Assembly: GCF_900048895.1 (NCBI RefSeq)
Contig: NZ_LT160640.1
Location: 1,132,758-1,196,757, forward strand
DNA from: Neglectibacter timonensis
GTDB taxonomy: Bacteria > Bacillota > Clostridia > Oscillospirales > Acutalibacteraceae
Reading direction: 5' to 3'
Length of the DNA stretch: 64,000 nt
The translations under genes were made by a program, and so were the position numbers. Shown piece after piece: positions 39,730 to 59,772 of the stretch. The notes under the pieces were generated by a model that did no database searches, had not been told where the DNA came from, and was given only the letters and a program-made list of their open reading frames with translations. Numbering within the stretch: position 1 is the first letter of the stretch; each line of letters begins with the position of its first letter.

Positions 39730-39836
39730 GTATCTGTCTGCCAAAAATGCGTCCGACAACGAGGCTGGAAAGCCGGGTAGCCAGACCTTTTTTCACAGCC
39801 TTGTCATGCCTTCGCGAAACCGGAGGCCCTCCTTTG

Positions 39837-41801
39837 TCATAACCCTGTTCGTATCTCCGGAAAAAACACCCGCATTTCTCCCTCTTCCCGGTTGGCCCAG
39901 GTATAATAGGGGACCAGCTTCAGCTGCATCTTCTCCCAGGCGGGCGGCCCGGCACGGTATAGAGGGCCTTCCTGCAGCATTGCCCGCCTCGCCTCCGCCG
40001 TCACGGTGTAAACGCCGCCCAGCAGGTCTTCTTCCCAGTGCTCCTCCAGTACAGAGGAATCCGGCAGGAGGATCCTCGACAGCAGCTCCCCATTGTCCGC
40101 CTGCTCTGCACAGTACAGAAGCGGACCGCGCATAACGGCCGTCTGATGGGCAAGGTGGTAAGCCCGGGGATCCGCATAGACCCTGTGGCAGGGCATTTCC
40201 AGTTCCAGAACCGCGCAGTCTCCCGGCTGCCAGCTGCGTTCCAGCGCTGCGAAGCCCTTTTCTGCTGCGGCGGGCGTCCTTTCTCCGTTTAACAGGAGCC
40301 TCCATTCCCGGCACCAGGCTGGAATCCGCAGCCGCAGCGTGAACCGGGCGGAATCCAGCACAGTGATCCGAATCCTTCCCTCCCGGGGATATTCCGTTAC
40401 CATTTCCATGCGTACCGGCCCGGAATCCAGCGGCAGCGTACAGCGCAGGCCCGTATACAGATTCACCCAGGCTTCCTGCCTGCCGGAAAGGACGGCAAAT
40501 CGTCCCAGCTCTCCCAGAAGCCGCGCCACATTGGGCGGGCAGCAGGGGCAGTCGTCCCACTCATAGCGCCTAGCCTGAATGTGGATTTTATCGTAGCGGT
40601 AAAGGGAATGAGGCCAGACCTCCAACGGGTTGCAGTAAAAATAATGCCGGCCATCCAGAGAAGTTCCCGCCAGTACCGTGTTGTACAGCGACAGCTCCAT
40701 CTGGTCGCCGTAAGCGCCGTCCGGCTCCAGGCGCATCATCCTGTGGCCGAACAGGAAAAGGCCGATGGCGGCGCAGGTCTCATTGTAGGAGTAGTCCGGC
40801 GGCAGGTCGTAAGCCCTGCCGATGCCTTCCCAGAACCCATCCTGTCCGATAGAACCGTTGAGCGCTACATTTCCCTGTTCAAAGCCTTGCCACAGGCTGC
40901 GGCAGGCCTCCATAAGCTCCTCATCGCCCGTCTCCATTGCCAGGTCCGCCATGCCGCAGTAAAAATAGGTTGCCCGCACGGCGTGCCCGGTGGGCTTCCG
41001 AAGCTGCCTGGCGGGAAGATGGGCCTGAAAATACTCGTAATTTCCCCAATAGGGACGGTGTCGGTCTGCCCAGCGGGAAAGCTCCCCCAGCACGGGCTTT
41101 CCGAATTTTTCCCGGTTCCGCTGCTGCTCCCAATCGAAATAATGGGGATGCTCCGGTCCGGAGCGGCCCCGCTCTTCCACAAAGAAGCGCAGGCACTCCA
41201 GATACTTTTTCTCCCCTGTACAGCCATACAGCCGGTAAAGCGCCAGTTCCACCTCAGGGTGCCCGTCGTAGCCTCGGATTTTTCCCGGTTCCGTTCCGAA
41301 CCACTGGCACAGGCAGTCGCCGATCCCTCTGGCGCAGCGGAGGGCCTGTTCGTTCCCCAGCGCCTCATAGCAGGCAAGCAGCCCCTCCATGTAGTGGCCC
41401 AGAGTGTACATTTCATGGGACATGAGCAGGGAGAGGAACCTGTCCGAAGGGCGGGACGCCTGCATAATGGGATGCAGGTAACCATCCGCGTACTGGGCCT
41501 GTTCCAGCAGTCCGATCAGTTCTTCCAGCTTTCTTTTCAGCGCCGGGTCTTCCCGCAGAAGCAGGGCATAGGCCGTCGCTTCCAGCAGCTTGCCCACATC
41601 CGTGGGCCGTCCCGGCTCCGTGCGTTCCGGCACCCGGTAACCGGCAGCGCGCCGGATCATGTCCAGCGCGCCCCCTTGCTCCAGGATTTCTATCTGGTAA
41701 GGAAGCATTTCCTCCACCAGAAGCTGCTGATATTCCTGCAGCATCCCCCCTGTAAGCGCTGCGGCGCTCAGCGGAAGCTCTTTCAAAACCTCCCTTTTCA
41801 T
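39837..41801 (-). CDS. GH127 family glycosidase (beta-L-arabinofuranosidase-like)
   Basis: The protein of about 654 residues has the (alpha/alpha)6 barrel of the former DUF1680 followed by beta domains. The zinc-thiolate motif is visible as CPCCPPNVARL, in which the first Cys of CCPP corresponds to the catalytic nucleophile known from Bifidobacterium HypBA1. A Glu and further Cys in the barrel would complete the site. The founding enzyme removes beta-L-arabinofuranose from hydroxyproline-linked arabinans; other members act on different pentoses. No signal peptide is present. The ATG at 41801 is preferred over 41810 because AAAGG abuts the latter. Confidence 0.92.
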   Translation of the reverse strand: MKREVLKELPLSAAALTGGMLQEYQQLLVEEMLPYQIEILEQGGALDMIRRAAGYRVPERTEPGRPTDVGKLLEATAYALLLREDPALKRKLEELIGLLEQAQYADGYLHPIMQASRPSDRFLSLLMSHEMYTLGHYMEGLLACYEALGNEQALRCARGIGDCLCQWFGTEPGKIRGYDGHPEVELALYRLYGCTGEKKYLECLRFFVEERGRSGPEHPHYFDWEQQRNREKFGKPVLGELSRWADRHRPYWGNYEYFQAHLPARQLRKPTGHAVRATYFYCGMADLAMETGDEELMEACRSLWQGFEQGNVALNGSIGQDGFWEGIGRAYDLPPDYSYNETCAAIGLFLFGHRMMRLEPDGAYGDQMELSLYNTVLAGTSLDGRHYFYCNPLEVWPHSLYRYDKIHIQARRYEWDDCPCCPPNVARLLGELGRFAVLSGRQEAWVNLYTGLRCTLPLDSGPVRMEMVTEYPREGRIRITVLDSARFTLRLRIPAWCREWRLLLNGERTPAAAEKGFAALERSWQPGDCAVLELEMPCHRVYADPRAYHLAHQTAVMRGPLLYCAEQADNGELLSRILLPDSSVLEEHWEEDLLGGVYTVTAEARRAMLQEGPLYRAGPPAWEKMQLKLVPYYTWANREEGEMRVFFPEIRTGL

Positions 41802-41892
41802 GTTCCTCATCCTTTCCCGTGAAGATATGATATTTTATTGATGATACGGCCGTTCGGCATGCCTCCGGCCGGTCCTCCGCCGGCAGAACAAA

Positions 41893-43902
41893 TCAGATTT
41901 TCCCGATCCACTCGCTGTGGGCGCCGTCCCGCAAAAAGACGGGAATGCTCTCAAGAGGTGCGTTTACCTCCACAGTCTGCCCGCCCGAATAGGAATCCCC
42001 ATTATGAAGGGAGACCCAGCGGGCGCCCTCCGGCAGATACACCTTCCGGCTCACCGCCCCGGGAGAGGTCACCGGAGCCACCAGCAGATCCGGACCGAAG
42101 CAGTACTGATCCTCCGTTTCCCAGCATTTGAGATCCTCCGGGAATTCGTAGAACATGGCCCGCATGACGGGCGTGCCCTTTTCATGGGCTTCCCGCATCA
42201 CCTTGCGGAGATAAGGGCGCATGGTTTCCCGGAAGAAGACGTAACGCTTGAGGATTTCATAAACCGGTTCCCCGAAGCTCCAAATCTCATTGTCCGCGCC
42301 GGTGTGCATGGTGGGGGTCCCGTCCTTCCGGTAAATCATTCTGGCGGGCATCCTGTCGCCATGCAGGCGCATCACCGGACAGAAAGCGCCGAACTGAAAC
42401 CAGCGCACCAGCAATTCCCGGAAGCCTGGGTCCTGTGGGTCGCCGTCGGAAAAACCACCGATATCCGTGGTCCACCAGGGAATTCCAGCCAGGGAAATGT
42501 TAATTCCCGCGCAGATCTGCCGCCGGAAATCGGTCCAGGTGCTGTAAATGTCGCCCGACCAGACCAGAGCGCCATAGCGCTGACTGCCGGCCCAGGCACA
42601 GCGTACCAGGTTGACGATGTTCTCCTGCCCTTCCCGCTGCATGCCCTCGTAGAAGCCCCTGGAATACAGCTGGGGATAGAGGTTGCTCACACGCTGAGCA
42701 GGCCCCAGCTCATACCGGTAGTTGTCAAAATCGAACACCCCGTATTCCGGCTCAGCCTCGTCCAGCCAGAAGATGCGCACGCCTTTGTCATAATAGCTCT
42801 GCTTGCATTTTTGCCAGACATACTCTCTGGCCCGGGGATTTGTGGCGTCGAAAAAGACGCTGTCCTCCGGGAACTGCATGCATACCTGGGCCCCCCGTTC
42901 CACCCGGACCAGCAGGCCAAGCTGGCGCATCTCTTCATAGTTTTCACTGGTCAGGGCGATCTGCGGCCATACGGAAACCATCAGCCGTATCCCCATCTCC
43001 TGCAGTTCCTTCACCATGGCCCGGGGGTCGGGAAAGAACTCCTCCTCAAAGCGGAAATCCCCCATTTTGGGCCAGTGGAAAAAGTCCAGCACAATCACGT
43101 CCAGGGGGATGCCCCGGCGCTTGTACTCCCGGGCCACCTCCAGAAGCTGCTCCTGGTTCCAGTAGCGCAGGCGGCACTGCCAGAAACCCAGGCCGTATTC
43201 CGGCATCATGGGTGCGGTGCCCACCACCGAGGCATAGGCCTCTTCAATCTCCGCGGGGGTATCTCCCGCTGTGATCCAGTAATCCATCTGCTCTGAAGCC
43301 TCTGCCTGCCACTGGGTGAAATTCTTTCCGAACACCGCTTTCCCCACCGCCGGGTTGTGCCAGAGGAACCCATATCCCCGGCTGGAAAGCAGGAAGGGGA
43401 CGCTGGCCTGGGTGTTCCGCTGGGAAAGCTCGACAATGCTGTGCTTCAAATCCAGATATTCCTGCTGGTACTGCCCCATGCCGAACAGCTTCTCGTCGGC
43501 GGGAGCCTCAAAATTCACCTCCAGGCGGTGGTCCCCGCCTGGAAGCGGGGTAAAGCTTCGTACAAATTTCTTCAGCCCGCCGTAGTGATAGGCCTCCTCC
43601 AACAGAAGTTTCCCGGTGTGATTATAAAAATGGATTCTGCAATTGTGGAACCACTCGTCATAGTCCAGCTCCGCACGGAGTTTTCCATTGCTGATAAAGG
43701 CCTTCTGTTCTCCTGCCTCTATCTGCACTTCAGACGGCTCCGGCGGCTCCGGAAGCAGGGCGTAGTGGGAGGGGATCACCTCTCCCTTCATGCGGGACCT
43801 CACCCGCAGGCTGTTCCTCCCCCAGGGCTCCAACACCAGCACCTCGCCGTTGCCCCGCCAGACCAGCCTTCCCTCTTCTTCAAAAAAGCGTTTCTTGCCC
43901 AT
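41893..43902 (-). CDS. GH31 family alpha-glycosidase (alpha-xylosidase/glucosidase type)
   Basis: The 669-residue enzyme has the N-terminal beta sandwich and TIM barrel of GH31. The nucleophile Asp381 is in WLDEAEPEY and the acid/base Asp451 in WSGDIYSTW; WWTTDIGGF follows. The WLDEAEPEY wording is closer to alpha-xylosidases than to alpha-glucosidases, but specificity within the family is hard to call. No signal peptide is present. It lies between two GH127 genes on the same strand, so it probably removes an alpha-linked sugar from the same imported glycan. Confidence 0.93.
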   Translation of the reverse strand: MGKKRFFEEEGRLVWRGNGEVLVLEPWGRNSLRVRSRMKGEVIPSHYALLPEPPEPSEVQIEAGEQKAFISNGKLRAELDYDEWFHNCRIHFYNHTGKLLLEEAYHYGGLKKFVRSFTPLPGGDHRLEVNFEAPADEKLFGMGQYQQEYLDLKHSIVELSQRNTQASVPFLLSSRGYGFLWHNPAVGKAVFGKNFTQWQAEASEQMDYWITAGDTPAEIEEAYASVVGTAPMMPEYGLGFWQCRLRYWNQEQLLEVAREYKRRGIPLDVIVLDFFHWPKMGDFRFEEEFFPDPRAMVKELQEMGIRLMVSVWPQIALTSENYEEMRQLGLLVRVERGAQVCMQFPEDSVFFDATNPRAREYVWQKCKQSYYDKGVRIFWLDEAEPEYGVFDFDNYRYELGPAQRVSNLYPQLYSRGFYEGMQREGQENIVNLVRCAWAGSQRYGALVWSGDIYSTWTDFRRQICAGINISLAGIPWWTTDIGGFSDGDPQDPGFRELLVRWFQFGAFCPVMRLHGDRMPARMIYRKDGTPTMHTGADNEIWSFGEPVYEILKRYVFFRETMRPYLRKVMREAHEKGTPVMRAMFYEFPEDLKCWETEDQYCFGPDLLVAPVTSPGAVSRKVYLPEGARWVSLHNGDSYSGGQTVEVNAPLESIPVFLRDGAHSEWIGKI

Positions 43903-44001: not shown

Positions 44002-45912
44002 TTACCGTGCGTTCATCCACACCAGCATCTCTCCAACCCCACGGTTGTTCCACAGGAAATAGGGAATCAGACGCAGGGAAGCCTGTTTTCTGGCGCTGCC
44101 CGCAGGGCGGTACAGAGTGTCTTCCGGCCATTCGCCGTAGTCGGAACGGCTGCCCTCCGCCGTCAGCGCCACGATGCCGCCGAAGGAATCCTCCCGTTCA
44201 GCCCTGGGCTGTTGGGAGAGGTCCGCAATAAAGTCGTTTAAGAGCGTTCCGTTGTCCGCCTCTTCTGCGCAGTAGACCAGCGGTCCCCGGCAGACCGCCG
44301 CACGTCCGCAGTCCTCGGTCACCCTGGGGTTTGCCTGCACGTACTGGGCGGGCATGTCAAAGCTCACCTGGAAACAGTCGCCCTCCGCCGGGGTGAGATG
44401 GGCATACCCCTTTTCCACAGAGAACTCCGCCTTTTCCCCGTTCCTGCGGATGCAGAAATTTTCCGCATAGGCGGGAATGCGCAGGAACAGGCTGACACCC
44501 GCAGGCCCCTGATAGGTGATCTCCGCCCTGCCCTCCCAGGGCATCTCGGAGACGCAGCACAGCGAGGCTTCCCCCTTCGACGTGCGCAAGCTCGCACTGT
44601 TGCCCAAATACAGATGCTGATAAACCGCATCCTCCCGCTGGGTATAGACGTAACCGCCCAGACCGCAGAGGGTACGGATCACATTGGGCGGGCAGCAGGC
44701 GCAGCCGAACCACTTCACCCGCTCCGGCTCCACAGACTCATGATCCCTGCGGTAGCGGGCCACGTCCGGCTTGAGCATCAGGGGGTTCACGTAGAAATAA
44801 TGCTCTCCGTCCTCCGAGATGCCGCTGAGCACATTGTTGTAAAGGGCGCGCTCCATCACATCTGCATAGCTGGAATCCGGATTCAGCTTCAGCATGCGCA
44901 GCGCCCACATGGCAAGGCCGATGGCGGCGCAGGTCTCCGTATAGCAGGTGTCGTTGGGCAGATCGTAATCCAGGGTGAAACGCTCCCCGTCCCCCTGAGA
45001 ACCCACGCCTCCCGTGAGGTACATCCGCCTTCCCGTCACATTGGTCCAAAGGGCCTCCAGCGCCTGCCGGAGGGTGGGATCCCCCTTCTCCAGAGCCACG
45101 TCGGCAGCTCCGGTGTAGAAGTACATAGCCCGCACCGCATGGCCCTCCGCCGCCTTCTGGTCCCGGATTTTCGCATGCGCCTGGTGGTAATCCGCCCCTA
45201 GCCATTTTTCCTTCCCACTGAGCTCCAGGAACCGTTCCTCTTCCAGGAATCCCGGGCGGGAACCGCGATTTTCCACAAAGTAATCGGCCAGCTCATAATA
45301 TTTCCTGTCGCCCGTAGCCCGGTAGGCCTTCATCAGCGCCAGCTCGATCTCCTCATGGCCTGGATAGGAGTTGAGCTTTCCCTCCTCCGTACCGAATACA
45401 GAGCGGATCAGCTCCACATTCTTCTCCATCACCTTGAGGAGCCTGCCGTCTCCAGTGACGGCATGGTACGCCACTGCGGCCTCCAGCATATGTCCTGCAC
45501 AGTAGAGCTCATGGCCATGGGCGATCTCCTGCCACTTTTTGTCCGGCTTTTTCAGCATATAATGGGTGTCCAGATAGCCGTCGGCCTCCTGGGCCTTTTC
45601 CAGAATGCCGATCACCTCGTCCAGGGCGGCCCGGATTTCAGGGCTGTCCTCATAGATCAGACTGTAGGAGGCAGCTTCAATCCACTTGGCTACGTCGCTG
45701 TCCTGGAACTGGTAGCCGTAAAACTCGCCCTCCTCCATGCCGGCTGCAATTTTAAAATTCTTCACCGCGTGGCTGGGAGCCGCGCCCGGCTCCCGGTCGT
45801 TGAGCACCCGCCACTGGTAAGGCACCACATTTTCCACCGCGTTCCGGATTCTCTTGTTCCAGAAGCCGTCGTCCACTTTGATCTGTTTGATATCAATTTC
45901 CACCGTTTTCAT
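44002..45912 (-). CDS. GH127 family glycosidase (beta-L-arabinofuranosidase-like), second
   Basis: The 636-residue enzyme shares the GH127 architecture with the gene at 39837 but is clearly diverged, so the two likely cleave different linkages. The metal and nucleophile motif reads CACCPPNVIRTL. GVGSQGDGERF and YTETCAAIGLAMW hold the barrel residues typical of the family. The ATG at 45912 is ten bases after GAGAGGA; a GTG two codons upstream is possible. No signal peptide is seen. It is in one run with GH31 and the second sugar importer. Confidence 0.93.
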   Translation of the reverse strand: MKTVEIDIKQIKVDDGFWNKRIRNAVENVVPYQWRVLNDREPGAAPSHAVKNFKIAAGMEEGEFYGYQFQDSDVAKWIEAASYSLIYEDSPEIRAALDEVIGILEKAQEADGYLDTHYMLKKPDKKWQEIAHGHELYCAGHMLEAAVAYHAVTGDGRLLKVMEKNVELIRSVFGTEEGKLNSYPGHEEIELALMKAYRATGDRKYYELADYFVENRGSRPGFLEEERFLELSGKEKWLGADYHQAHAKIRDQKAAEGHAVRAMYFYTGAADVALEKGDPTLRQALEALWTNVTGRRMYLTGGVGSQGDGERFTLDYDLPNDTCYTETCAAIGLAMWALRMLKLNPDSSYADVMERALYNNVLSGISEDGEHYFYVNPLMLKPDVARYRRDHESVEPERVKWFGCACCPPNVIRTLCGLGGYVYTQREDAVYQHLYLGNSASLRTSKGEASLCCVSEMPWEGRAEITYQGPAGVSLFLRIPAYAENFCIRRNGEKAEFSVEKGYAHLTPAEGDCFQVSFDMPAQYVQANPRVTEDCGRAAVCRGPLVYCAEEADNGTLLNDFIADLSQQPRAEREDSFGGIVALTAEGSRSDYGEWPEDTLYRPAGSARKQASLRLIPYFLWNNRGVGEMLVWMNAR

Positions 45913-45943
45913 TTTCACATTGTCCTCTCCGTATCATCCAAAT

Positions 45944-48628
45944 TTACACAACCGGAAAACGCAGCACCACACTGTGCGCTTCTCCGCAGGGAAGCCGCAG
46001 CTCCGCCTTCCCTCTCTCTTCCAAGGCTGACTGCCCCCCGCAGGAGAGAGACCAGCCGGAAAGCCCCGCTGCCTCCACCGACAGCCCGGCGCTCTCCCCC
46101 TTCAGGCCCCTCAGGTCCACTGTGCAGGCCAGCTCTTTCCTCTCCGGGTCGCAGAGTACCTCCGTCAGCCTTCCGGAGGCCAGCAGCAGGTGCAGCCTGC
46201 CCTCCGGCCCCACATAGTGGAATCGCCTGTTTACGCCGTCCTGCGGGAGGACGGAAATCCCCTCCCCTCTGCTGAGCGTCCCTCCGTAGCAGACCGTCCC
46301 GAACAGGGGATCCCGCGCCAGGATCGTCGCGGCCCCCCGCAGGTAGCCGCAGAAGCCCAGGTCGATTTCACAGGAATAGTACCAGGGCCCGCCGTGGTGA
46401 GGCTGATCCAGCCAGGTGCTGCCGAAGGGCTGGGGCTCGTACCCGCCGGACGCCGCGCCGTCGTGCTCCTTCCCCGGGAACCAATAGCCGTAGCCTGTCT
46501 CCTTCCGGCCCGCGTTGAGCAGGGACCAGGAGCTGAGCAGGGACCCGTAGCCCAGCCGCAGCAGAGAATAGGGATCCGGGGCGAACCGGAGGGCATAGTC
46601 CAAAATGGCCCAGCCCCCCATCTGGGACATATAACTCAGGGTGTATCGGGTGTTGGAGCCCCGGTAATCACTGCCGTACCAGTAATAGGCAGGCTCCAGC
46701 TCCCCACGACAGGCCAAATTGCAGCGCATCTGGGTCTCCAGAAAATCCTGAGCCTTGCTGAGGCTGAGCGGCGGGTCGAAATAGGCCTCCCGTTCCTCCT
46801 CCTCGGCCAGCTCCATGGCCCGGCGGGCCAGAGCCTCTGTGGATTCAAAACCCGTGGTGTCGAAGGGATACTCCGATCCGAACACGTCGGTGCATTCCAG
46901 GGCGAAATACCGCACCTTGCGGACCCAATGCCGCCAAAGCCGGCGCAGCTCCTCCTCCATTCCTTCTTCCTTCAGGGCCCGAAGCACGTCCTCGATCACC
47001 AGCTCATTGTAGAGCCCCGTACGATAGGCGGACCAGCCGTCCAGCTCCAGAGGAATGGTAAACATGGCGTCAGCCGTGCGCGCCGCCCGGTACAGATAGA
47101 CTCCGGCTTCTTGAGAGAGGGGCATATCCGGGTAATCCCTGGCAATGCGGTACAGGCTGTAATACAGAAGCACGATGTGGGGATAGTCGTAGATCCGCCA
47201 GATGTGCAGCTTTCCCTTCAGGTCCGGGTCTTCGCTCTCCCGGTTCTGCTTCCAGTCTGGAATCCCGTAGAGGGCGAAGGGGTATTCCTCCTTCTCCGTG
47301 CGCTGCAGGCCGCCCCAGACGAAGTGCTCCACATAGAGGTCCAGCGCCTTTACCTGCTCCTTTTCCGGCCGTTCCGCAAGCTTTGCAGCCAGGAAAGCAG
47401 GCTTGCCCAGCCCCGGATCGTCGCAGGAAACCTCGTAGATCCGCCAGCCGCCGATGCGGTCGTAATTGTCCGGGCCCAGCAGCACGCCGGTCTCATTGTT
47501 CCACTCCGAAATAAGCCCGTAATACCATTTTTCCGGATCCCGGTGCTGACATTTTGCCAGGAACGCGGCCCGCTTTTCCAACAGCTCCTCTGGCTGGAGG
47601 GTGGCAAAAAAGGTGACGGTCATATACCTGTCCCCCGCAAAGCGGACCGTCAGCGGAATTTCCCCAAGCCTTGTCAGCCGCAGCCGCACAATACGCCTTT
47701 CCCCCCGCTGCTCCTCGGAGAGCAACTGCATCCCTTCTGCCGGACAGAGCCGCAGATCCTCCCAACAGCTGGTAAGCGCCAGGGAAATCTCCTGTCCCTG
47801 GGGGACCGTCAGTCCGGGCAGCACCTCCACGTCCACCAGGCCCCGGCGGGCCAGCAGGCGGCGGGCATCCTGCCGGCTGTCCGTGAACTCCCAGCGAAAG
47901 CAGAACCGCTCCCCCTCCCCCGGATTCAGCTGTTTTTCCGTGCCGGGAAGCCGGGGCGTGTGACCTTTGGCCTCTGCCTCCCGCCGCACGCCTGTGGAAT
48001 GGGCATAGGCGGTAAAGGCAGTCTCCTTCTTTCTGTCGCCGCCGTCGCTTACCGCGTAGGCGGGTGTTTCCTGAAAATATTCCAGCTGCGTACCGTCTTG
48101 GGGCAGCACCGCCAAAAGCGGCCCCTTTCCGTCACAGCGTTCAAACAGCAGGTGAGAACCGTGGCCCGACACAAAATGATGCCCTATCACCTTGCCTCCC
48201 GCATTCTCTCCCCAGTGGAAATCCGAATTACAGGGAAACGAAAATCCCGCGTCTGTGAGAAGCAGCGGGCGGACGCCGCAGTTTTCCACAAGCAGCTCGT
48301 AGAGCAGGGCGTCCTCCTGCAAGGTATAGACCGCCTTCATCTTGAGCGCGGCGGCCTCCGCCGTCCATGCGGCCTCATACTTTACTGAGAGGGGCTCCCT
48401 GACATAGCGTTCCTCCTGCGGAACAGTTTCCGGGGTAAGGCTGAAGCCGCCCGGTTCCCCGTCCTGCACCCAGCCCAGCTGGAACCTGCCGAAAGCTTCC
48501 CCAGGCAATATGTATTGGGTGCCCGCTTCCCCCGGCGCAGACGGCCCTGGGAGCAGGGACTGCAGCAGGCCGTTTTTTGCCTTGATCCGAAAGGCACGGC
48601 TGCAAAGCTGGTATGTCTTTTGTTCCAT
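45944..48628 (-). CDS. Large putative carbohydrate-active enzyme (DUF5695-like)
   Basis: The 894-residue protein has a beta-rich N-terminal half (about 1-390) and an alpha-helical, probably six-hairpin toroid, second half (about 390-800, with YFALECTDVFGSEYPFDTTGF and a glycine-rich GYGYWFPGKEHDG), ending in a small beta domain. I do not recognise a characterised family; it reminds me of DUF5695 proteins. No signal peptide is present. GGGAGG precedes the ATG. Its place between a sugar importer and GH127/GH31 genes argues for a glycosidase or lyase acting on the same glycan. Catalytic residues cannot be named. Confidence 0.7.
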   Translation of the reverse strand: MEQKTYQLCSRAFRIKAKNGLLQSLLPGPSAPGEAGTQYILPGEAFGRFQLGWVQDGEPGGFSLTPETVPQEERYVREPLSVKYEAAWTAEAAALKMKAVYTLQEDALLYELLVENCGVRPLLLTDAGFSFPCNSDFHWGENAGGKVIGHHFVSGHGSHLLFERCDGKGPLLAVLPQDGTQLEYFQETPAYAVSDGGDRKKETAFTAYAHSTGVRREAEAKGHTPRLPGTEKQLNPGEGERFCFRWEFTDSRQDARRLLARRGLVDVEVLPGLTVPQGQEISLALTSCWEDLRLCPAEGMQLLSEEQRGERRIVRLRLTRLGEIPLTVRFAGDRYMTVTFFATLQPEELLEKRAAFLAKCQHRDPEKWYYGLISEWNNETGVLLGPDNYDRIGGWRIYEVSCDDPGLGKPAFLAAKLAERPEKEQVKALDLYVEHFVWGGLQRTEKEEYPFALYGIPDWKQNRESEDPDLKGKLHIWRIYDYPHIVLLYYSLYRIARDYPDMPLSQEAGVYLYRAARTADAMFTIPLELDGWSAYRTGLYNELVIEDVLRALKEEGMEEELRRLWRHWVRKVRYFALECTDVFGSEYPFDTTGFESTEALARRAMELAEEEEREAYFDPPLSLSKAQDFLETQMRCNLACRGELEPAYYWYGSDYRGSNTRYTLSYMSQMGGWAILDYALRFAPDPYSLLRLGYGSLLSSWSLLNAGRKETGYGYWFPGKEHDGAASGGYEPQPFGSTWLDQPHHGGPWYYSCEIDLGFCGYLRGAATILARDPLFGTVCYGGTLSRGEGISVLPQDGVNRRFHYVGPEGRLHLLLASGRLTEVLCDPERKELACTVDLRGLKGESAGLSVEAAGLSGWSLSCGGQSALEERGKAELRLPCGEAHSVVLRFPVV

Positions 48629-51658: not shown

Positions 51659-51672
51659 GTCGTTTTCCCCCC

Positions 51673-52605
51673 TCAGAATATGGACATGTCCATGGTTTTC
51701 TTGGCGATGAAGTTCGTGGTGAAAACCAGGATCAGGCCGATGATCGATTTCATAAGGCCAACTGCAATGGCAAAGGAATGACGGCCCATCTGGATGCCGT
51801 ACCGGTAGACATAGGTATCGATGATATCCCAGTATTCCCGGGTAGTGGGCTGGCCGATGAGCAGGTTCTGTTCATAGCCGATATTCAGAATGCCGCCGAT
51901 GCCCAGGATGAACAGCAGCACAATAGTGGGCAGGATGCTGGGCAGCGTGATGTGCTTGACCATGCCCCAGCGGCCCAGGCCGTCCACAGCGCCGGCTTCG
52001 TAGAGTTCCTGGTCGATGCCCGCGATGGCAGACATATAGAGAATCGTGTTCCAGCCAATATTCTTCCATATGTTGGCTATCGTGATGATCCCCCAGAAAA
52101 ACTTGCCTTCCGAGAGGAACAGCACCGGTTTTTCCAAGATCCCCGCAGACACCAGCACCTGGTTGACAACGCCTTCACTGCTCAGGCAGGTGGTGAGGAT
52201 ACTGGCCACCACAACCCAGGATACAAAATAGGGCAGGTAGGAGACCGTCTGTGTCACCCTTTTGAGCTTCGTGCCCTTCAGCTCGTCGAACAGAAGCGCC
52301 AGCGCAATCGGCGCCGCAAAGCCCACTGTGATGTTCAGGCCGCCGATAACCAGGGTGTTCCGGATAATCGTCCAGGCATCCTTGCCCTGAAAGAAGGAGG
52401 CGAAATTTTTCAGCCCCACAAAACGGTCCCAAGTGAGCTCCCGGCCGGGAACATAGTCGAAAAAGGCGTAGACAATTCCGTACAGCGGAATTAAAAAGAA
52501 AAAGACCCACCAGACAATGCTGAGAGAGCTCCAAAACCAAAGTTCCCTCTCTTTCTTGAATCTCCGGCGAAATTTACCCTTTTGGAGCGGCGAACTGATC
52601 TGCAC
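51673..52605 (-). CDS. Carbohydrate ABC transporter permease (LplB/YteP type)
   Basis: The 310-residue membrane protein has a basic N-terminal tail (KGKFRRRFKKER), six membrane segments and the EAA-like loop YEAGAVDGLGRWGMVKHITLP. It is the first gene of the operon, with a GTG start after AAGGGG. A consensus promoter lies about 250 bases upstream. Confidence 0.94.
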   Translation of the reverse strand: MQISSPLQKGKFRRRFKKERELWFWSSLSIVWWVFFFLIPLYGIVYAFFDYVPGRELTWDRFVGLKNFASFFQGKDAWTIIRNTLVIGGLNITVGFAAPIALALLFDELKGTKLKRVTQTVSYLPYFVSWVVVASILTTCLSSEGVVNQVLVSAGILEKPVLFLSEGKFFWGIITIANIWKNIGWNTILYMSAIAGIDQELYEAGAVDGLGRWGMVKHITLPSILPTIVLLFILGIGGILNIGYEQNLLIGQPTTREYWDIIDTYVYRYGIQMGRHSFAIAVGLMKSIIGLILVFTTNFIAKKTMDMSIF

Positions 52606-52851: not shown

Positions 52852-52893
52852 ATTATAAGACCTTTAAGTGAAGTTGTCAATATAATTGTTCGG
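52852..52893 (-). promoter_or_regulatory. Consensus promoter of the second importer operon
   Basis: TTGACA (52875-52880), 17 bases and TATAAT (52852-52857) form a perfect sigma-A promoter. Directly upstream, TAATTGTTCGG (52883-52893) resembles the word TAATAGTTCGG that lies upstream of the other importer promoter and, like its nearest repeat there, abuts the -35. Confidence 0.85.
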
Positions 52894-53142
52894 TTTTTTT
52901 TGATTTTTGGATGATTTGGAGGTGATTTTTCCTTATTTTTTCTGCTTAATTACGATTTTAAGAAGAAAATGTGAAGTTGTCCATACATTCGTTCGAACAG
53001 CGTCTCAAAGCGGATTCAGGTTTTCCGCCCCTTCAGAGAGAACACCAACGCTCCAGATTATTCATAAGAATGAATATTATTTTTATCCAGCAGAGTTCCC
53101 CTTCCCCGCCCGGGGCCCGGGAAGGGGTGAAGGTCCAGCGTC
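52894..53142. other. Intergenic stretch with a palindrome and a hairpin
   Basis: No gene is supported. TTCATAAGAATGAA (53061-53074) resembles the operator of the hydroxyproline genes. CCCCTTCCC/GGGAAGGGG (53098-53127) forms a GC-rich hairpin. Confidence 0.45.
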
Positions 53143-53188
53143 AAAAAAATGCCGCCGCCGAAGGAGAGGGGTCTCCCAAGGCGACGGC
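53143..53188 (-). terminator. Terminator of the hypE-hypD-proC operon
   Basis: A 9-bp GC stem with one G-U pair (53151-53159 with 53180-53188) is followed on the minus strand by a run of seven T. It lies about 80 bases past the proC stop. Confidence 0.8.
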
Positions 53189-53265
53189 AATTCATCAGTT
53201 TTTTAAGTGCTGGCGGCGGCAACTTTCCTGCCGCCACTCTCCAAAGCCGCGTTTCCCGGCCCGTG

Positions 53266-54069
53266 TTACGCTTTCCCCATCGACCGGGATTTCTCCGCGC
53301 AGATGCGCATGGCCGACATCACGCTGCTCCGGAAGCCGGATTCCTCCAATGCCTGCACTGCCTCAATGGTAGTGCCTGCAGGCGAACAGACCATATCTTT
53401 CAGCTCCCCGGGGTGCTTTCCTGTCTCAAGGACCATCTTTGCGCTGCCCATAACCGCTTGAGCAGCAAAGGTGTAGGCCTGGGCCCGGGGCATTCCCTCT
53501 GCAACAGCGGCATCTCCCATCGCTTCAATCAGCATGAAGATATAGGCAGGCGAGCTCCCGCTTACCGCCACCACCGCATCAATCAGACGCTCCGGTACCA
53601 CCTCCGCCTTTCCAAAGCTTTCCAACAGCTTCAGACCCAGGGCAAGCTGCTCCTCCGACACCCTGGCATTGGGACAAGCCGCGGTGATTCCCTCACCCAC
53701 CATAGCCGGGGTATTGGGCATGGTGCGAATTACGGCTGTCTCCTCTCCCAGCTGTTCCGCCAGCCAGGAAAGCGTCTTCCCGGGTGCGATGGTGATAATC
53801 AGCTGGTCCTGCCGCAGGCTGCCGCGCAAGCCTGCGATCACCTCTTCGTAGAACTGCGGCTTCACCGCCAGCACAAGCACATCCGCCTGTGCCGCCACCT
53901 CGCAGTTGTCCTCTGTCACAACAATCCCCAGCGTTTCCGCGGCAGCGCTGCGTGCCGGCGCAAAGGCGTCTGATGCAATAATATCCTCCCGGGGGCAGGC
54001 TCCACTTTTGATAATTCCCCCGATCATGGCCTTGGCCATGTTCCCACAGCCGATAAAACCCAATTTCAT
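53266..54069 (-). CDS. proC: Pyrroline-5-carboxylate reductase
   Basis: The 267-residue enzyme reduces 1-pyrroline-5-carboxylate to L-proline with NAD(P)H. The Rossmann motif GFIGCGNMAKAMIGG is at the N-terminus, and the C-terminal dimer helices hold SGSSPAYIFMLIEAM and CSPAGTTIEAVQALE with the substrate-binding Ser/Thr. Its stop lies upstream of a terminator and its start is 32 bases after hypD. In this setting it completes the two-step conversion of trans-4-hydroxyproline to proline, a pairing known for HypD. Confidence 0.96.
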   Translation of the reverse strand: MKLGFIGCGNMAKAMIGGIIKSGACPREDIIASDAFAPARSAAAETLGIVVTEDNCEVAAQADVLVLAVKPQFYEEVIAGLRGSLRQDQLIITIAPGKTLSWLAEQLGEETAVIRTMPNTPAMVGEGITAACPNARVSEEQLALGLKLLESFGKAEVVPERLIDAVVAVSGSSPAYIFMLIEAMGDAAVAEGMPRAQAYTFAAQAVMGSAKMVLETGKHPGELKDMVCSPAGTTIEAVQALEESGFRSSVMSAMRICAEKSRSMGKA

Positions 54070-54101: not shown

Positions 54102-56513
54102 TCAGGAGAAGCTCTGTTCTGTACGGGCGATGATCTCATCCTGCAGCGCTCTGCTCAGGTTCCGGAAATGGTCGCTGTAGCCCGCCACGCGCACAATCAG
54201 GTCCTTATATTCCTCCGGATGCGCCTGGGCGTCCAGAAGCGTCTGGCGGTCGATCACATTGAACTGGATGTGGTGGCCGTCCATATTGAAATAGGTGCGG
54301 ATCAGGTTGGCCATCTGTTTGAGGCCGTCCTCCCCTGCCACCACAGAGGGGGTAAATTTCTGGTTCAGCAGCGTGCCTCCCGTGCGGATGTGGTCCATCT
54401 TGGCGCAGGAACGCAGCACCGCCGTGGGGCCGTGGGTATCCGCCCCCTTGTCAGGGGAAATACCCTCGCTCACCGGCTTGTGGGCCCGCCGTCCGTTGGC
54501 GCTTGCCAGCATCACCTCGCCGAAATACACATGGCAGGTGGTGGGCAGCATGTTCACCCGGTAGGTCCCGCCCCTCTGGTTGGGCCGTCCGGTGACGGCC
54601 TTCTGGTAATAGCTGAAAACTTCCTGCATGATGCTGTCCGCAAAATCGTCGTCATTGCCGTATTTGGGGCTGAAATTCTGCACCAGGTTCAAAATCCGGG
54701 GATCGTTTTCAAAATCCTCCTGCAGGGCCTGAAGCAGTTCTCCCATTGTAACGTTCTTTTCCTGATATACCTGCCGGCGGATTGCCGCCAGACTGTCCGT
54801 CACGGTACCGATACCCACACCCTGGATATAGCTGGTGTTGTACCGTGCCCCTCCCGCATTGTAGTCCTTCCCCTTCCGGATACAGTCATTGGTGATGACC
54901 GAAAGGAAGGGCGCCGGCATATAGCTGGCATAGATGCTCTCGATCAGGTTGCTGCCCTGTACCTTGATGTCCAGGAAGTAATCGATCTGCCTGTGATAGG
55001 CCTCCAGCAATTCCTCATAGGAGTGAAAATCTTCCGCCTTCCCCAGGGGAAGCCCAAGTTGCCTGCCCGCCACATGGTCATACCCGTTGAATAGGGTCAG
55101 CTCCAGAATCTTGGGGAGGTTGAAATAGCCTGTGAGTATGTAAGCCTCGTTTCCGAAGGCGCCTGTCTCCACACAGCCGCTCGTACCGCCGCGGCGGGCA
55201 TCCTCAATGGATTTCCCGGCGGCCAGCAGCTCCTGTACAATAGCCTCCGTGTTGTAAAAAGCGGGCTGTCCCCATCCCTTCCGGCTGATCTCACAGGCGC
55301 GCAGCAGGAATTTCTGGGGGGTTTTCCGACTGATCTGCACGTTGGAGCTGGGCTGAAGCAGTTTCATATCATCCATACAGTCGAGAATCAGGTAACTGAC
55401 CTCATTGACGCCGTCCGTGCCGTCAGGCGCGATACCGCCGGTGTTGATGTTGGCAAAATCCGTATAGGTACCGCTCTCCTTCAGGGTGATCCCCACTTTG
55501 GGTGGCGCGGGCTGGTTGTTGAATTTCACCCACAGGCATTCCAGCAGCTCCAGCGCCTGGGGACGGCTGAGCCTGCCGGCTGCTACATCCTTCCGGTAGA
55601 AGGGGCACACATGCTGGTCCAGGCGGCCCGGGCTGTAGGAATCCCAGGGGTTGAGCTCGCTGGTAACCGCCAGATGGACAAACCAATACATCTGCAGCGC
55701 CTGATGGAAGGTCTGCGGCTTTTGGGCAGGTACCACCGCGCAGTTTTCGGCAATGGTGAACAGGTCCGCCCTCCACTGGGGGTCCGTCTCTTCCGCAGCC
55801 ATGCGTCTTGCCAGCTCACCATACCGCTTTCCCAGAATCATAATGGCATCACAGGCAATCATCATGGCGGAAAGCTCTTCCTTTTTCCGGAGCGCTTCCG
55901 GATCCCGCAGAAAATCCAGGTCCTTCATGGCCCTGCGGATGTCCTCCTGATAGTCCGCAAAGCCCTTTTGGTAGATTTTATCCGAACCCACCGTATGGCC
56001 GGGGCCGCGCTGCTCCATGAATTCTGTAAAAATGCCGCATTCGTAGGCGGCCTTCCATTCCTCGCTCATACTGCTGAGAATCCTGTGCCGGATGGAACGC
56101 TTCTCCCAGAAGGGGATGACTCGCTCCTGCTGAAGGCGCAAATCCTCCTCCGTTACGGCAAAACGGATAAGCTCCCGCTGGTCCATCACCTTCATATCCT
56201 CAACCGTATGGCAGCAAAGCTCAGGGAAGGTGGGGGCCGACTGGGGGCCGTCTCCCTTCTCCCCTACAATCAGCTCTCCTTTGTGGATAGAAATGCTTTT
56301 TTTCGAGAAATAGTGGCGCAGCGTCAATGCGCGCAGTTCCGGCACCGACACCGTCCCCTCGTACTGCTCATATGCCTCTGTTTCCAGCAGGGCGCGCTCC
56401 ATATAGATGCGCGGCTGGGTATTCAGGCTCTCCTCCCGCAGGCGGCGCACCCGTTCCGTCACGCCATGCGCCTCCTGTACCCTGGGCTCCTGCACTCTCT
56501 CCTGAACTGCCAT
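54102..56513 (-). CDS. hypD: trans-4-hydroxy-L-proline dehydratase (glycyl radical enzyme)
   Basis: This 803-residue cytoplasmic enzyme dehydrates trans-4-hydroxyproline to pyrroline-5-carboxylate by radical chemistry. The thiyl Cys447 and base Glu449 are in SGCVETG and the glycyl radical Gly778 in RVAGYS. Residues that I recall as important in Clostridioides difficile HypD (His160, Asp278, Ser334, Asp339, Phe340, Cys434, Glu436, Tyr450, Thr645, Gly765) all recur here at a constant offset of 13, which separates it from glycerol or choline enzymes. The ATG at 56513 follows GAGGAG; the longer frame is not needed. It lies between the activase and proC genes. Confidence 0.96.
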   Translation of the reverse strand: MAVQERVQEPRVQEAHGVTERVRRLREESLNTQPRIYMERALLETEAYEQYEGTVSVPELRALTLRHYFSKKSISIHKGELIVGEKGDGPQSAPTFPELCCHTVEDMKVMDQRELIRFAVTEEDLRLQQERVIPFWEKRSIRHRILSSMSEEWKAAYECGIFTEFMEQRGPGHTVGSDKIYQKGFADYQEDIRRAMKDLDFLRDPEALRKKEELSAMMIACDAIMILGKRYGELARRMAAEETDPQWRADLFTIAENCAVVPAQKPQTFHQALQMYWFVHLAVTSELNPWDSYSPGRLDQHVCPFYRKDVAAGRLSRPQALELLECLWVKFNNQPAPPKVGITLKESGTYTDFANINTGGIAPDGTDGVNEVSYLILDCMDDMKLLQPSSNVQISRKTPQKFLLRACEISRKGWGQPAFYNTEAIVQELLAAGKSIEDARRGGTSGCVETGAFGNEAYILTGYFNLPKILELTLFNGYDHVAGRQLGLPLGKAEDFHSYEELLEAYHRQIDYFLDIKVQGSNLIESIYASYMPAPFLSVITNDCIRKGKDYNAGGARYNTSYIQGVGIGTVTDSLAAIRRQVYQEKNVTMGELLQALQEDFENDPRILNLVQNFSPKYGNDDDFADSIMQEVFSYYQKAVTGRPNQRGGTYRVNMLPTTCHVYFGEVMLASANGRRAHKPVSEGISPDKGADTHGPTAVLRSCAKMDHIRTGGTLLNQKFTPSVVAGEDGLKQMANLIRTYFNMDGHHIQFNVIDRQTLLDAQAHPEEYKDLIVRVAGYSDHFRNLSRALQDEIIARTEQSFS

Positions 56514-56585
56514 TGCAATTCTCCTCTCCTTTTTCCGGATTCTATTGGTACTCTGTCTCAGTATCACAGCAGGCTGTCTCCTGCC

Positions 56586-57542
56586 TTATCCGCCGATCAC
56601 CACCTGGGGGAAACCAGCCCCGCGGAACAACTCCGCCAGCCCTTCCAGTTTTTCCCTGGACGGTGCCTGAAAGGACGGCTGAGAAACGTGCCCCAGCCTC
56701 TGGGCTTTGCTCCGCCCGAAATCATGGTAGGGCAGCAGATGGATTTTCTCTGCCCGCAGTCCTTTTTTGAGCAGGCCGATCACCGGCAGAATATCCTCCT
56801 CTTCCGCGTTGACCCCCTCCACCAGGGGCAGGCGCAGGCGGATTCTCGCCCCATTCAGATGCAGCTTCCAGAGGTTCTGAAGAATCAGCTCATTCCCCAC
56901 GCCGGTCCATTTTCTGTGCTTCTGGGAATCCATGGCCTTGATGTCGTAGAGAAAGCAGTCTGCAACCTCCAGCAGCTGCTCAAAACGCTCAAAAGGCGCC
57001 TGCCCGCAGGTGTCGATGAAAACGCTGATTCCTTCCTCCTTCAGCAGCCGGCAGAGTTCCAATACTGCCGGGAAGGGCTCAGCCGCCAGCACCTCCCCTC
57101 CGGAAAGGGTCGCCCCGCCGCCCGATTCCTCGTAGAACATCCTGTCCCTGCAGACCGCGGCAGCCAGCTCTTCCGGGCTGTAGCGGATTCCGGCCACCTG
57201 TCTTGCAGAGCCCAGACAGGCCTGCACGCAGGCGCCGCAGGCAATACAGCGGCTGCGGTCCGGTTCGGGGCATCCCCCCCAAACCGCTTTCTGAAGGCAC
57301 GCCGCCTCGCAGGCGCCGCACCCGGTACAGCGTTCCTCATTCCAGAGCAGTTCCGGCTTTCCCGCTTGGCTTTCCGGATTATGACACCAGGCGCACCGCA
57401 GAGGGCAGCCCTTAAAAAACACCGTCGTCCGGATACCCTCCCCGTCATGAATGCAGTACCTCTGGATGTCGAATACGGACAAGCCATCCCGCCCCGCTTC
57501 CCCCTGCGGCGCAGCCGCGGAAGGACAGTCAATTTTTTTCAT
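56586..57542 (-). CDS. hypE: Glycyl radical enzyme activase for HypD (radical SAM)
   Basis: The 318-residue radical SAM enzyme installs the glycyl radical on HypD. The SAM cluster motif is CPLRCAWC (Cys46, Cys50, Cys53). An inserted ferredoxin-like domain holds two further clusters, CTGCGACEAAC (72-82) and CIACGACVQAC (99-109). It precedes hypD by 72 bases on the same strand. The ATG at 57542 is the only plausible start, and one copy of the regulon palindrome covers it. Confidence 0.95.
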   Translation of the reverse strand: MKKIDCPSAAAPQGEAGRDGLSVFDIQRYCIHDGEGIRTTVFFKGCPLRCAWCHNPESQAGKPELLWNEERCTGCGACEAACLQKAVWGGCPEPDRSRCIACGACVQACLGSARQVAGIRYSPEELAAAVCRDRMFYEESGGGATLSGGEVLAAEPFPAVLELCRLLKEEGISVFIDTCGQAPFERFEQLLEVADCFLYDIKAMDSQKHRKWTGVGNELILQNLWKLHLNGARIRLRLPLVEGVNAEEEDILPVIGLLKKGLRAEKIHLLPYHDFGRSKAQRLGHVSQPSFQAPSREKLEGLAELFRGAGFPQVVIGG

Positions 57543-57625: not shown

Positions 57626-57723
57626 GCGTGCTTTTGGAAGATTTATCATTTTTTCAGGATGCATCATCTGGGATTTCCCGGTTTTCTCCAGAAAAAAGCC
57701 TTAGAAGACCCCGCAAAGAAATT

Positions 57724-57777
57724 TTCATATTTGTGAACTTTCTATTTCTTGACATTCCGCTGTCCAGCAGATATGAT
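57724..57777 (+). promoter_or_regulatory. XRE-cupin gene promoter with operator site B
   Basis: TTGACA (57749-57754), 17 bases and TATGAT (57772-57777) form a strong promoter for the regulator gene. TTCATATTTGTGAA (57724-57737), identical to site A, lies upstream of the -35. That position could allow autoregulation or DNA looping with sites A and C. Confidence 0.8.
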
Positions 57778-57813
57778 AGACCATGGAACATGACTGTTGG
57801 GAGGAATTTTAGA

Positions 57814-58407
57814 TTGGATACCAATATGGCCATCGGCGCCAAAGTAAAGGCCCTGCGCACAGAGAAAAAAATGACGTTGAAACAGCTCAGCGAGGGAAGC
57901 GGACTTTCCGTAGGCTTCCTCTCTCAATTTGAACGGGGACTTTCCTCCATCGCGCTGGATTCCCTGGAGAAGCTTTCCGAAATTCTGGATTCTCCCCTGT
58001 CCGAGCTGTTTGAAGAACACACCGGCCGCCGTTCCGCCGATCCTGTAGTGCATGGAATCGACCTGCAGTTTACGGAAATCAGCCCCCGGATTTACCAGAG
58101 CATCCTGCGGACCCCCGATGCTTCCTACGACATGCTGCCCCGCGTGTTCACGCTGTTTCCCTTTGACAGCGAGGAGGACGGCCTGGAGATGTACTCTCAT
58201 GAAGGAGAGGAGTTTGTCTATGTACTGGAGGGCGTGGTCACCTTTTTCCTGGAAGATGCCCAGTACCTGCTCTACCCCGGCGATTCCATACACATCGCTT
58301 CTACACGCCCTCACAACTGGGCCAACCGCACCGCACGCACCGCACGGATCCTGACCTTGAACACCCCTAACCCCCTGCATCACAAATCCGGGCAGACAGA
58401 GCATTGA
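57814..58407 (+). CDS. XRE-family regulator with cupin sensor domain
   Basis: The 197-residue protein has an N-terminal XRE helix-turn-helix (about residues 8-62, LKQLSEGSGLSVGFLSQFERGLSS) and a C-terminal cupin barrel (about 118-190, with MYSHEGEEFVYVLEG, YLLYPGDSIHI and RPHNW) that probably binds a small ligand. The TTG at 57814 is nine bases after GGGAGG and is preferred over ATGs at 57790 and 57826. It sits between the hydroxyproline operon and the Xaa-Pro peptidase gene. I infer it binds the shared palindrome and senses hydroxyproline, proline or a related metabolite. Confidence 0.88.
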   Translation: MDTNMAIGAKVKALRTEKKMTLKQLSEGSGLSVGFLSQFERGLSSIALDSLEKLSEILDSPLSELFEEHTGRRSADPVVHGIDLQFTEISPRIYQSILRTPDASYDMLPRVFTLFPFDSEEDGLEMYSHEGEEFVYVLEGVVTFFLEDAQYLLYPGDSIHIASTRPHNWANRTARTARILTLNTPNPLHHKSGQTEH

Positions 58408-58478: not shown

Positions 58479-58515
58479 GGGTTCTGCCTCAAGCCGGGGC
58501 AGAACCTGTTTTTTC
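58479..58515. terminator. Bidirectional terminator between regulator and peptidase genes
   Basis: A 9-bp stem (GGTTCTGCC 58480-58488 with GGCAGAACC 58498-58506) has TTTTTT after it on the plus strand and a T-rich tract on the minus strand. It ends both convergent genes. Confidence 0.88.
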
Positions 58516-58530
58516 TATTACAGGACGCTT

Positions 58531-59772
58531 TCAGTGCGCCATGGCGTCCTCAATATCTTCCAGCTTTCTCGGAATCGCCGCCGACAGGTTTTCGCAGCCG
58601 GTCTCCGTCACCAGGCAGTTATCCTCCAGACGGAAGCCAATACCGCTGTCCTCATCATAGATGCCGATATCCACACAGAATACCATGCCGGGAGCCACAG
58701 CGCGGGTCATATCCACCTCATCATGCACGTCGTACCCGATGTGATGCGCGCCGCCGTGCCACATGTATTTCCCAATTTCTTCATAAGAGTTGAGCTTTCC
58801 AATGGCCTTCAGCTGCTCATAGCAGTATTTCCGGGCGGTCAGATCCACAGAGGCCATGGGCATGCCCGGCTTGATGATGGAGAACATGTACTCCGAGGTG
58901 TTGTAGGCGCACTGATACAGCGCGGCCTGCTCCTTGGTAAACCTGCCGTTGCAGGGCCATCCGCGGGATACATCGTTGACCTCGTTGTCCCACCAGGCGC
59001 CCACGTCGTTCAAGATCATGTCGTCGTCCTGGGCCTGGCCGGTGTAGCTGTAATAGTGGATGCAAAAATTGTTCTTGCCCGCTGAGATAATGGAAGGGAA
59101 GGCCGAAGTGAGAACCCCGCGGCTTGTGAGCGCATGGTCAAATTCCGCCTTGTACTCGTATTCGTACATGCCTGGACGGGAAGCTTTCATCATGGCCAGG
59201 ATACCCGCACGCGTCACCGTCATGGCCTGGCGCATGGCGGCAATTTCACAGGGCCGCTTGATCGTGCGCTGGCTGCGCAGCTGAGGCAGCAAATTGCGGA
59301 TCAACAGGCCGGGATAGCGCTTGGCTGCGCTGTGGGCAAAGCGGTGCGCTTCACCTGGTTCCTCCTCAGGCGTATGGTTGAACAGGTCCAGCCAGAGGCT
59401 GTCGAACGCCCCGCCGGTAGCCGCCCTGCGGAAATCCTCCTCGAAGCTTTCCACATAACGGACGTCCTCTATGCCGGACTGTGCCGACGCCTCCTCTGCG
59501 GTGGGCCTGCGCCCGGTCCAGCGCTCCTTTAACAGGTCGTGGGGCAGAATATAAAGGACCTCCCTGGCTGTGCCCTTAGTCTTTTGCAAAAACAGGATAA
59601 AGCCGGCAAAATCCACGCCGGTCAGATACAGAAAATTCCGGCTGCAGAAAAAGGGATAGTAGGCGTCCGCCGACTGCCGGGGCGCATTTCCGGAAAAAAG
59701 AACAGCCGCGGAATTGTCCGGCATGGCCTCCAATAGGTTTTTCCGATTTTCCCTATGAAATGAAGCTTCCAT
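58531..59772 (-). CDS. Xaa-Pro aminopeptidase (M24B family)
   Basis: The 413-residue cytoplasmic enzyme removes the N-terminal residue from X-Pro, and probably X-hydroxyproline, peptides. The N-terminal creatinase-like domain (about 1-160) precedes the pita-bread domain with metal ligands Asp in LNDVGAWWDNEVNDVSR, His in HHIGYDVHDE, Glu in VDIGIYDEDSG and Glu in FRLEDN. The ATG at 59772 follows GAAAGGA; the frame upstream crosses the promoter and is not translated. The promoter carries the same palindromes as the hypE operon, tying it to hydroxyproline use. Confidence 0.94.
   Translation of the reverse strand: MEASFHRENRKNLLEAMPDNSAAVLFSGNAPRQSADAYYPFFCSRNFLYLTGVDFAGFILFLQKTKGTAREVLYILPHDLLKERWTGRRPTAEEASAQSGIEDVRYVESFEEDFRRAATGGAFDSLWLDLFNHTPEEEPGEAHRFAHSAAKRYPGLLIRNLLPQLRSQRTIKRPCEIAAMRQAMTVTRAGILAMMKASRPGMYEYEYKAEFDHALTSRGVLTSAFPSIISAGKNNFCIHYYSYTGQAQDDDMILNDVGAWWDNEVNDVSRGWPCNGRFTKEQAALYQCAYNTSEYMFSIIKPGMPMASVDLTARKYCYEQLKAIGKLNSYEEIGKYMWHGGAHHIGYDVHDEVDMTRAVAPGMVFCVDIGIYDEDSGIGFRLEDNCLVTETGCENLSAAIPRKLEDIEDAMAH

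Follow-up and report, generated by a model that had tools for sequence, protein, structure and literature searches.

A gene block that joins GH127 glycosidases to hydroxyproline catabolism recurs in one other genus and may serve to import and dismantle plant glycopeptides

Why should enzymes that are predicted to remove arabinose from glycans lie directly beside genes that consume hydroxyproline? The question is raised by a stretch of 64,000 nucleotides of Neglectibacter timonensis (contig NZ_LT160640.1, positions 1,132,758 to 1,196,757; this whole stretch is called the window below), part of a genome of 3.67 Mb in 14 contigs that holds six GH127-family genes. On the minus strand of the window, from position 59865 down to 39837, follow a Xaa-Pro aminopeptidase, hypE, hypD, proC, permease B, permease C, a binding lipoprotein, a DUF5695 protein, GH127b, a GH31 enzyme and GH127a. 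The sole gene on the plus strand encodes an XRE-cupin regulator and sits between the aminopeptidase gene and hypE. An earlier, sequence-only reading had listed two GH127 enzymes, a GH31 enzyme, a large unknown enzyme and a sugar importer beside proC-hypD-hypE, an XRE-cupin regulator and a Xaa-Pro peptidase. All of them are present, and the large enzyme belongs to DUF5695 (PF18951). We suggest in answer that the genes form one unit, shared between genera and probably spread by horizontal transfer, that would import and dismantle short hydroxyproline-containing plant glycopeptides, of the extensin type, the arabinogalactan protein type or both. We give this reading about an even chance of being right. 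What we infer from these genes and their neighbourhoods is which substrate is used, that peptides are imported, what the DUF5695 protein does and that the two halves of the cluster feed into each other.

A GH127 gene would fall within 10 kb of hypD by chance in a few per cent of cases (rough arithmetic from the gene number and genome size above). Hence, the window taken alone is weak evidence, and the argument is carried by the borders of the block, which recur in another genus (g444, five genomes). Three genomes of this genus have hypD. Two, G1054 and G1017, have a close GH127b, and it is linked to hypD in both. In G1054 one contig carries the aminopeptidase (85% identical to the window), XRE (72%), hypE (66%), hypD (87%), proC (79%), permease B (86%) and permease C (89%) before it ends. 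The next contig starts within permease C (91%) and continues with the binding protein (76%), the DUF5695 protein (69%) and GH127b (78%). The two contig ends (C81-C337) share exactly 141 identical bases, an end overlap with no spanning read. In G1017 hypE, hypD, proC and GH127b lie in succession, GH127b being a relic of which residues 2-518 of 638 match and the sequence beyond is unlike. By eye, what follows residue 518 (L187:6347) looks amylase-like. Beyond XRE and hypE both genomes have aminopeptidase homologues of 85-86% identity. Conserved co-occurrence of hypD and GH127, the check on which the sequence-only reading had staked itself in advance, has thus survived in one other genus, as a linkage across a contig join in G1054 and as a relic in G1017.

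The window and its relatives are alike from the aminopeptidase to GH127b, and the flanks outside these two genes differ. By similarity, the GH31 enzyme and GH127a are therefore outside the shared core; a GH120-type protein comes after GH127b in G1054. Because the same block recurs in g444 with different flanks, the grouping of its genes is more than chance. To place it among other hypD loci we took HypD matches at an E-value of 1e-230 or better. Of 391 genomes from the class 43 have such a match, and of 300 from the family 10, the window genome and G132 being in both sets. We compared the 50 further hypD loci, 13 of them shorter than 20 kb because contigs end. Here and in the GH127b survey below, tblastn matches were kept from a query coverage of 30% upward. 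Among 52 hypD loci (the 50, the window and G1054), an aminopeptidase of more than 50% identity together with a GH127 side occurs only in the window, G1054 and G1017.

It is likely that the block moved horizontally, to judge by its identities across genera. RpoB of the window genome is 83% identical to that of G1054, G1017 or G952, and 89-92% identical to that of the three congeners compared. Four proteins exceed RpoB in their identity to G1054 or G1017, at 85-91%: permeases B and C, HypD and the aminopeptidase. The window aminopeptidase also resembles the copies of the other genus more than it does the nearest one of its own genus (G012, 77%).

The aminopeptidase accompanies the GH127 operon even in the absence of hypD. 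We surveyed the best 80 of at least 550 confirmed GH127b loci in named genomes, counting matches to regulator, kinase, hypE and XRE from 35% upward. In these 80 loci permease B occurs at 50% or more in six, DUF5695 in four, GH31 at 60% or more in five and the aminopeptidase at 52-56% in five; hypD above 50% occurs in none. The aminopeptidase homologue lies downstream of the GH127 operon in the five loci, which represent three gene arrangements and all of which also have permeases. The order is GH127b-GH31-aminopeptidase in L056 and L064, and DUF5695-GH127b-aminopeptidase in L063 and likewise in L089 and L116 (Lachnospiraceae). In L074 the aminopeptidase matches are only 27-28% identical, and the operons of G002 and G014 are without DUF5695. 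Next to the L089 operon is a gene for a GH127 protein that also has laminin-G and Ig-like domains and, judging from them, is probably secreted.

In the aminopeptidase tree the branch that unites the copies of the window, G1017 and G1054 has a support of 94/91, just under the starred level, and the GH127-linked copies are not one clade once unlinked rows are counted. The G002 and G014 copies group with the usual ones of their genus. A EutH-family gene follows the aminopeptidase homologue in G002 (L052:16649-18998, with GH127b) and in G016 (L178:9369-11754, a stretch without GH127). The neighbourhood in G002 may be incidental, because its copy groups with the genus's usual ones and EutH comes after it.

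What do the genes encode? HypD (54102-56567) scores 1489.6 bits on the curated model of trans-4-hydroxy-L-proline dehydratase, which has a cut-off of 1100. It keeps Asp339, Cys434, Glu436, Thr645 and Gly765 of the solved HypD 6vxc (counted by eye in an alignment, with a chain-numbering offset of 20). The same residues, with Cys434-X-Glu436 as a motif, form the catalytic list for HypD (PMC7077986). ProC (53266-54069) is a pyrroline-5-carboxylate reductase by TIGR00112 (283.4 bits, cut-off 196.75). We call the putative activase gene at 56586-57542 hypE by its position and its glycyl-radical activase family (TIGR02494, 305.6, cut-off 174.35); its product aligns across almost all of the HypD-activase model NF043069, yet scores 353.9 bits, under the cut-off of 425. 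The aminopeptidase (58531-59865) has AMP_N and M24, the domains of aminopeptidase P (M24B), and its nearest solved relative is the Xaa-Pro aminopeptidase 3ig4 (285.9 bits). The XRE-cupin regulator (57688-58407, plus strand, start codon uncertain) combines HTH_3 and Cupin_2, and homologues lie close to hypD in 16 of the 50 sampled loci.

Glycyl-radical enzymes of 36% identity that adjoin GH127b in G008, G024 and G026 were at first taken for hypD linkage. The copies scored, which were those of G026 and G008 and similar ones of G010 and the window genome, are not hypD: the HypD model (cut-off 1100) gives them 539-581 bits, the PFL2-3 model 917-935. A more distant enzyme in G002 has 240.7 bits. 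At these three loci (L048, L049 and L050) GH127b stands without permeases near a PFL2-type enzyme, the type having been checked in G026 and G008. A fructose-6-phosphate-type aldolase comes next at the G008 locus.

GH127a (39837-41810, 657 amino acids) and GH127b (44002-45918, 638 amino acids) both have the catalytic, middle and C-terminal Pfam domains of GH127. The nearest solved relative of both is the beta-L-arabinofuranosidase 4qjy, which we take to be a Geobacillus enzyme (639.5 bits for GH127b vs 496.5 for HypBA1; 475.7 vs 373.5 for GH127a). Both keep all ten HypBA1 positions checked, H142, Y145, H194, R273, E322, E338, C340, C415, C417 and C418, where the exact numbering of the Glu and Cys positions is our assumption. 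R273, H194, H142, Y145 and a zinc set of Glu and three Cys are described in PMC10850190. The residue set is also kept in L001, one of the other four GH127-family genes of the genome, and not in L004, L005 and L006; GH127a is short where HypBA1 has loop A. With these domains, the zinc and catalytic Glu-Cys3 set and the substrate residues of HypBA1, GH127a and GH127b are predicted GH127 beta-L-arabinofuranosidases. The GH31 enzyme (41893-43902, 669 amino acids) has three GH31 domains in Pfam. Its nearest solved relative is the alpha-xylosidase MeXyl31 (5zn6, 818.7 bits), and on the NCBIfam alpha-xylosidase equivalog NF007940 it stays below the cut-off (245.6 vs 606).

Permeases B (51673-52605) and C (50741-51658) of the ATP-binding cassette (ABC) importer were recognized with Pfam. 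The binding lipoprotein (48796-50634) is of the family 1 extracellular solute-binding type; it matches 6fth at an E-value of 1.4e-6, has no Pfam match, and shows by eye a lipobox and a lipoprotein-type N-terminus. A scan of cluster proteins with Pfam showed no ABC ATPase. The sequence-only reading had noted that the glycosidases carry no signal peptide, and indeed none is apparent at the N-termini of GH127a, GH127b, the GH31 enzyme and the DUF5695 protein (by eye, as for the lipoprotein, with no predictor).

From these parts we propose the following route. The lipoprotein and the two permeases would take up a glycosylated peptide or a hydroxyproline glycoside. The DUF5695 protein and the pentosidases would trim the glycan, with beta-L-arabinofuranose being removed by GH127b and GH127a, and aminopeptidase P would open X-Pro or X-Hyp bonds. 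HypD, activated by HypE, would dehydrate free hydroxyproline to pyrroline-5-carboxylate, which ProC would reduce to proline. Three associations (hypD with GH127b, hypD with aminopeptidase P, and the GH127 operon with aminopeptidase P) suggest a peptide backbone with proline or hydroxyproline beneath a beta-arabinosylated glycan. This is the make-up of hydroxyproline-rich plant glycoproteins (PMC7263609).

How are the two halves transcribed? Perfect promoter-like sites (12/12, spacer 17) precede both hypE (57625-57597) and permease B (52880-52852); in all, 13 such sites were found in comparison to 7.6 expected in shuffles. An interval of 660 bases separates proC from permease B and holds a strong terminator-like structure (53145-53240, minus strand, z -5.2), two strong hairpins of which the second is followed by a T run. 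With separate promoters and this structure between the halves, the cluster probably forms two transcription units. In G1017 proC and GH127b are 66-75 bases apart depending on the start codon; by eye, this gap has a ribosome-binding-like sequence, and no terminator-like structure was seen in it. Inspection by eye gave no convincing motif for a common operator of the two promoters. Between promoter and start of the permease operon (52750-52714, minus strand) the leader forms a hairpin of 13-15 bp followed by TTTTC (stretch z -4.8), and the G1054 leader has a similar GTTCC...GGAAC hairpin (stretch z -0.6); possibly this is an attenuator or a small repeat. A 41-base direct repeat (73%; 52852-52892 and 52955-52995) covers two promoter-like sites before permease B.

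Several observations weigh against a shared glycopeptide unit. First, GH127 is near hypD in just one of the 50 sampled hypD loci (G1017), and the window, G1054 and G1017 loci, being related to each other, count as fewer than three independent events. Second, true hypD is found solely in the window genome among 29 Acutalibacter genomes. Seven of these, the window genome included, have GH127b at 69% or more, and no true hypD was found in the other six (one of which, G014, is only 63% complete). G994 has both hypD and GH127b, but on different contigs, and G952 has hypD without a close GH127b or aminopeptidase. Third, the two halves are separated in the window by the terminator-like structure and a separate promoter, and the proC-permease B gap of G1054 also has a strong terminator-like hairpin (stretch z -3.1). 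Fourth, proC, the binding protein, DUF5695, GH127b, hypE and XRE are 64-83% identical across genera, at or below RpoB. Fifth, GH127b is nearer to 4qjy than to HypBA1, and the GH31 enzyme and the GH120 of G1054 point to xylose; Hyp-Ara3 and Hyp-Ara4 are without xylose (PMC7263609). Finally, no member of the AraA family (L-arabinose isomerase) was found in the window genome at an E-value of 0.001, with 5 of 14 control genomes positive, so arabinose use is unexplained. The earlier claim of a unit that strips sugars and then uses the amino acid therefore stands in part: the linkage recurs and the X-Pro peptidase is recurrent beside the GH127 operon, but the linkage is rare, the halves look separately transcribed and AraA was not found.

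Given the AraA result, either arabinose is used by an alternative route or it is not what the cell mainly feeds on. The latter would fit a narrower form of our reading, a mobile glycopeptide-to-proline unit in which intact hydroxyproline glycopeptides of plant wall glycoproteins are imported and deglycosylated inside the cell by GH127 and by DUF5695 as a new group of PL27-like enzymes, hydroxyproline (converted to proline) being the main prize and not arabinose. We put this forward tentatively, at somewhat less than an even chance.

One could also argue that two independent units travel together. A hydroxyproline cassette, serving free hydroxyproline or peptides from collagen or diet, and a generic aminopeptidase would then be neighbours of an importer with glycosidases whose target is a pentose oligosaccharide free of hydroxyproline, for example from arabinan or from side chains of xyloglucan. 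The separate promoters and the terminator-like structure speak for this, as do the counts, with GH127b mostly lacking hypD (six of seven Acutalibacter genomes) and hypD mostly lacking GH127 (49 of 50 loci). The nearest solved relatives of GH127b and the GH31 enzyme, and the GH120 of G1054, point in the same direction. Moreover, the aminopeptidase homologue adjoins EutH in G002 and G016, and that of G012, the nearest relative in Acutalibacter, is without hypD or GH127 beside it (in 20 kb, of which only 1.9 kb on one side). Against two units stand the recurrence of the block borders in another genus, the direct succession of proC and GH127b in G1017 and the recurrent aminopeptidase downstream of the GH127 operon where hypD is absent. 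We consider two units possible, although the lesser probability.

If the glycopeptide unit is accepted, which glycoprotein does it target? The sequence-only reading had named extensin-type glycoproteins. Hydroxyproline-rich glycopeptides are favoured by our results, but extensin is not singled out: GH127b is nearer to 4qjy, and the PL27-like protein and the xylosidase-like partners would also fit arabinogalactan-type or mixed substrates. For the DUF5695 protein (45944-48628, 894 amino acids; PF18951, E-value 2e-44) we obtained, from an alignment of five sequences, a predicted model with a confidence (predicted local distance difference test, pLDDT) of 60.5. Its first two Foldseek matches are the PL27 lyase BACCELL_00875 (E-values 1.4e-21 and 1.8e-19; the next is 6e-7), at 15% identity and a target template modelling score of 0.55 from this low-confidence model, and a DUF5695 profile finds BACCELL_00875 at an E-value of 5.9e-8. 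By profile and model, the protein appears to be a remote relative of PL27 L-rhamnose-alpha-1,4-D-glucuronate lyases. In the low-confidence model it appears to have, like BACCELL_00875, an N-terminal beta-sandwich followed by a helical domain. It differs from this enzyme in its low identity and in that by eye no signal peptide is apparent.

PL27 enzymes free rhamnose from gum arabic via beta-elimination (PMC8377490). Hence, the unit might target arabinogalactan proteins, for example gum arabic glycopeptides, and not extensin, with DUF5695 acting on a side chain that contains glucuronate and GH127 on terminal beta-arabinofuranose. This is a variant of the glycopeptide reading and its probability overlaps with it. 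Fold and profile match PL27, but the fold match is distant and the model uncertain, no galactanase or beta-galactosidase domain was found among the cluster proteins scanned, and the G002 and G014 operons do without DUF5695. We think arabinogalactan proteins as the target in place of extensin rather unlikely. A system for aceric acid in pectic rhamnogalacturonan II is very improbable, since NF049879 (aceric acid hydrolase), although the sole NCBIfam family match of both GH127 proteins, is reached with only 330.7 and 444 bits (cut-off 950; 414-432 bits in three GH127b orthologues), and the good PDB matches are to beta-L-arabinofuranosidases.

DUF5695 is rare: when 394 genomes were sampled from the order, 4 had it, two with weak matches; the carriers G994 and G1054 are outside that draw. 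A search for relatives in viral contigs found none. At L181:6695-12956 two tandem DUF5695 genes lie beside permeases and a binding protein, in a stretch without a relative of the window GH127. The block gives DUF5695 a testable function; the mention that we found in the available literature is in work on fungal regulators.

The importer combined with intracellular GH127 enzymes tied to hydroxyproline-rich glycoproteins resembles the HypAA-HypBA2-HypBA1 system of Bifidobacterium longum (PMC7263609). There, GH121 releases beta-Ara2 outside the cell and the sugar is imported. Pfam showed neither GH121 nor GH43 in the scanned proteins of the cluster (the genome was not searched for them), and the window adds hydroxyproline catabolism, the aminopeptidase and the PL27-like protein. 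The hypD-hypE-proC cassette of Clostridia (PMC9044972; PMC7077986) has the same three genes and the same HypD catalytic residues. These two papers treat free hydroxyproline and collagen, and the word plant is in neither main text; in the window the cassette is flanked by an aminopeptidase and a glycan unit. For Latescibacteria (PMC4454575) it was proposed in silico that GH127 acts on arabinose attached to hydroxyproline in extensins, together with uptake of peptides and proline; gene linkage to hypD is not mentioned in the available passages. Each half is already known by itself. A report of the two fused into a single shared unit did not turn up in the literature searched, in the available parts of which no paper joins the stripping of plant wall glycoproteins by GH127 to HypD, and PMC4454575 is the nearest in print.

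Gut hydroxyproline is usually ascribed to collagen (PMC9044972). Plant extensins and arabinogalactan proteins are a second source, in which hydroxyproline is capped by sugars. A recurring block of GH127, X-Pro peptidase and HypD would link the stripping of plant wall glycoproteins to HypD at the level of genes.

Across the window, Rfam gives nothing above threshold except two tRNAs. Beyond uppP, at 61680-63941, lie an AraC-type response regulator and part of a sensor kinase; none was seen in G1054, and next to the G1017 block there are only homologues of 29-36% identity.

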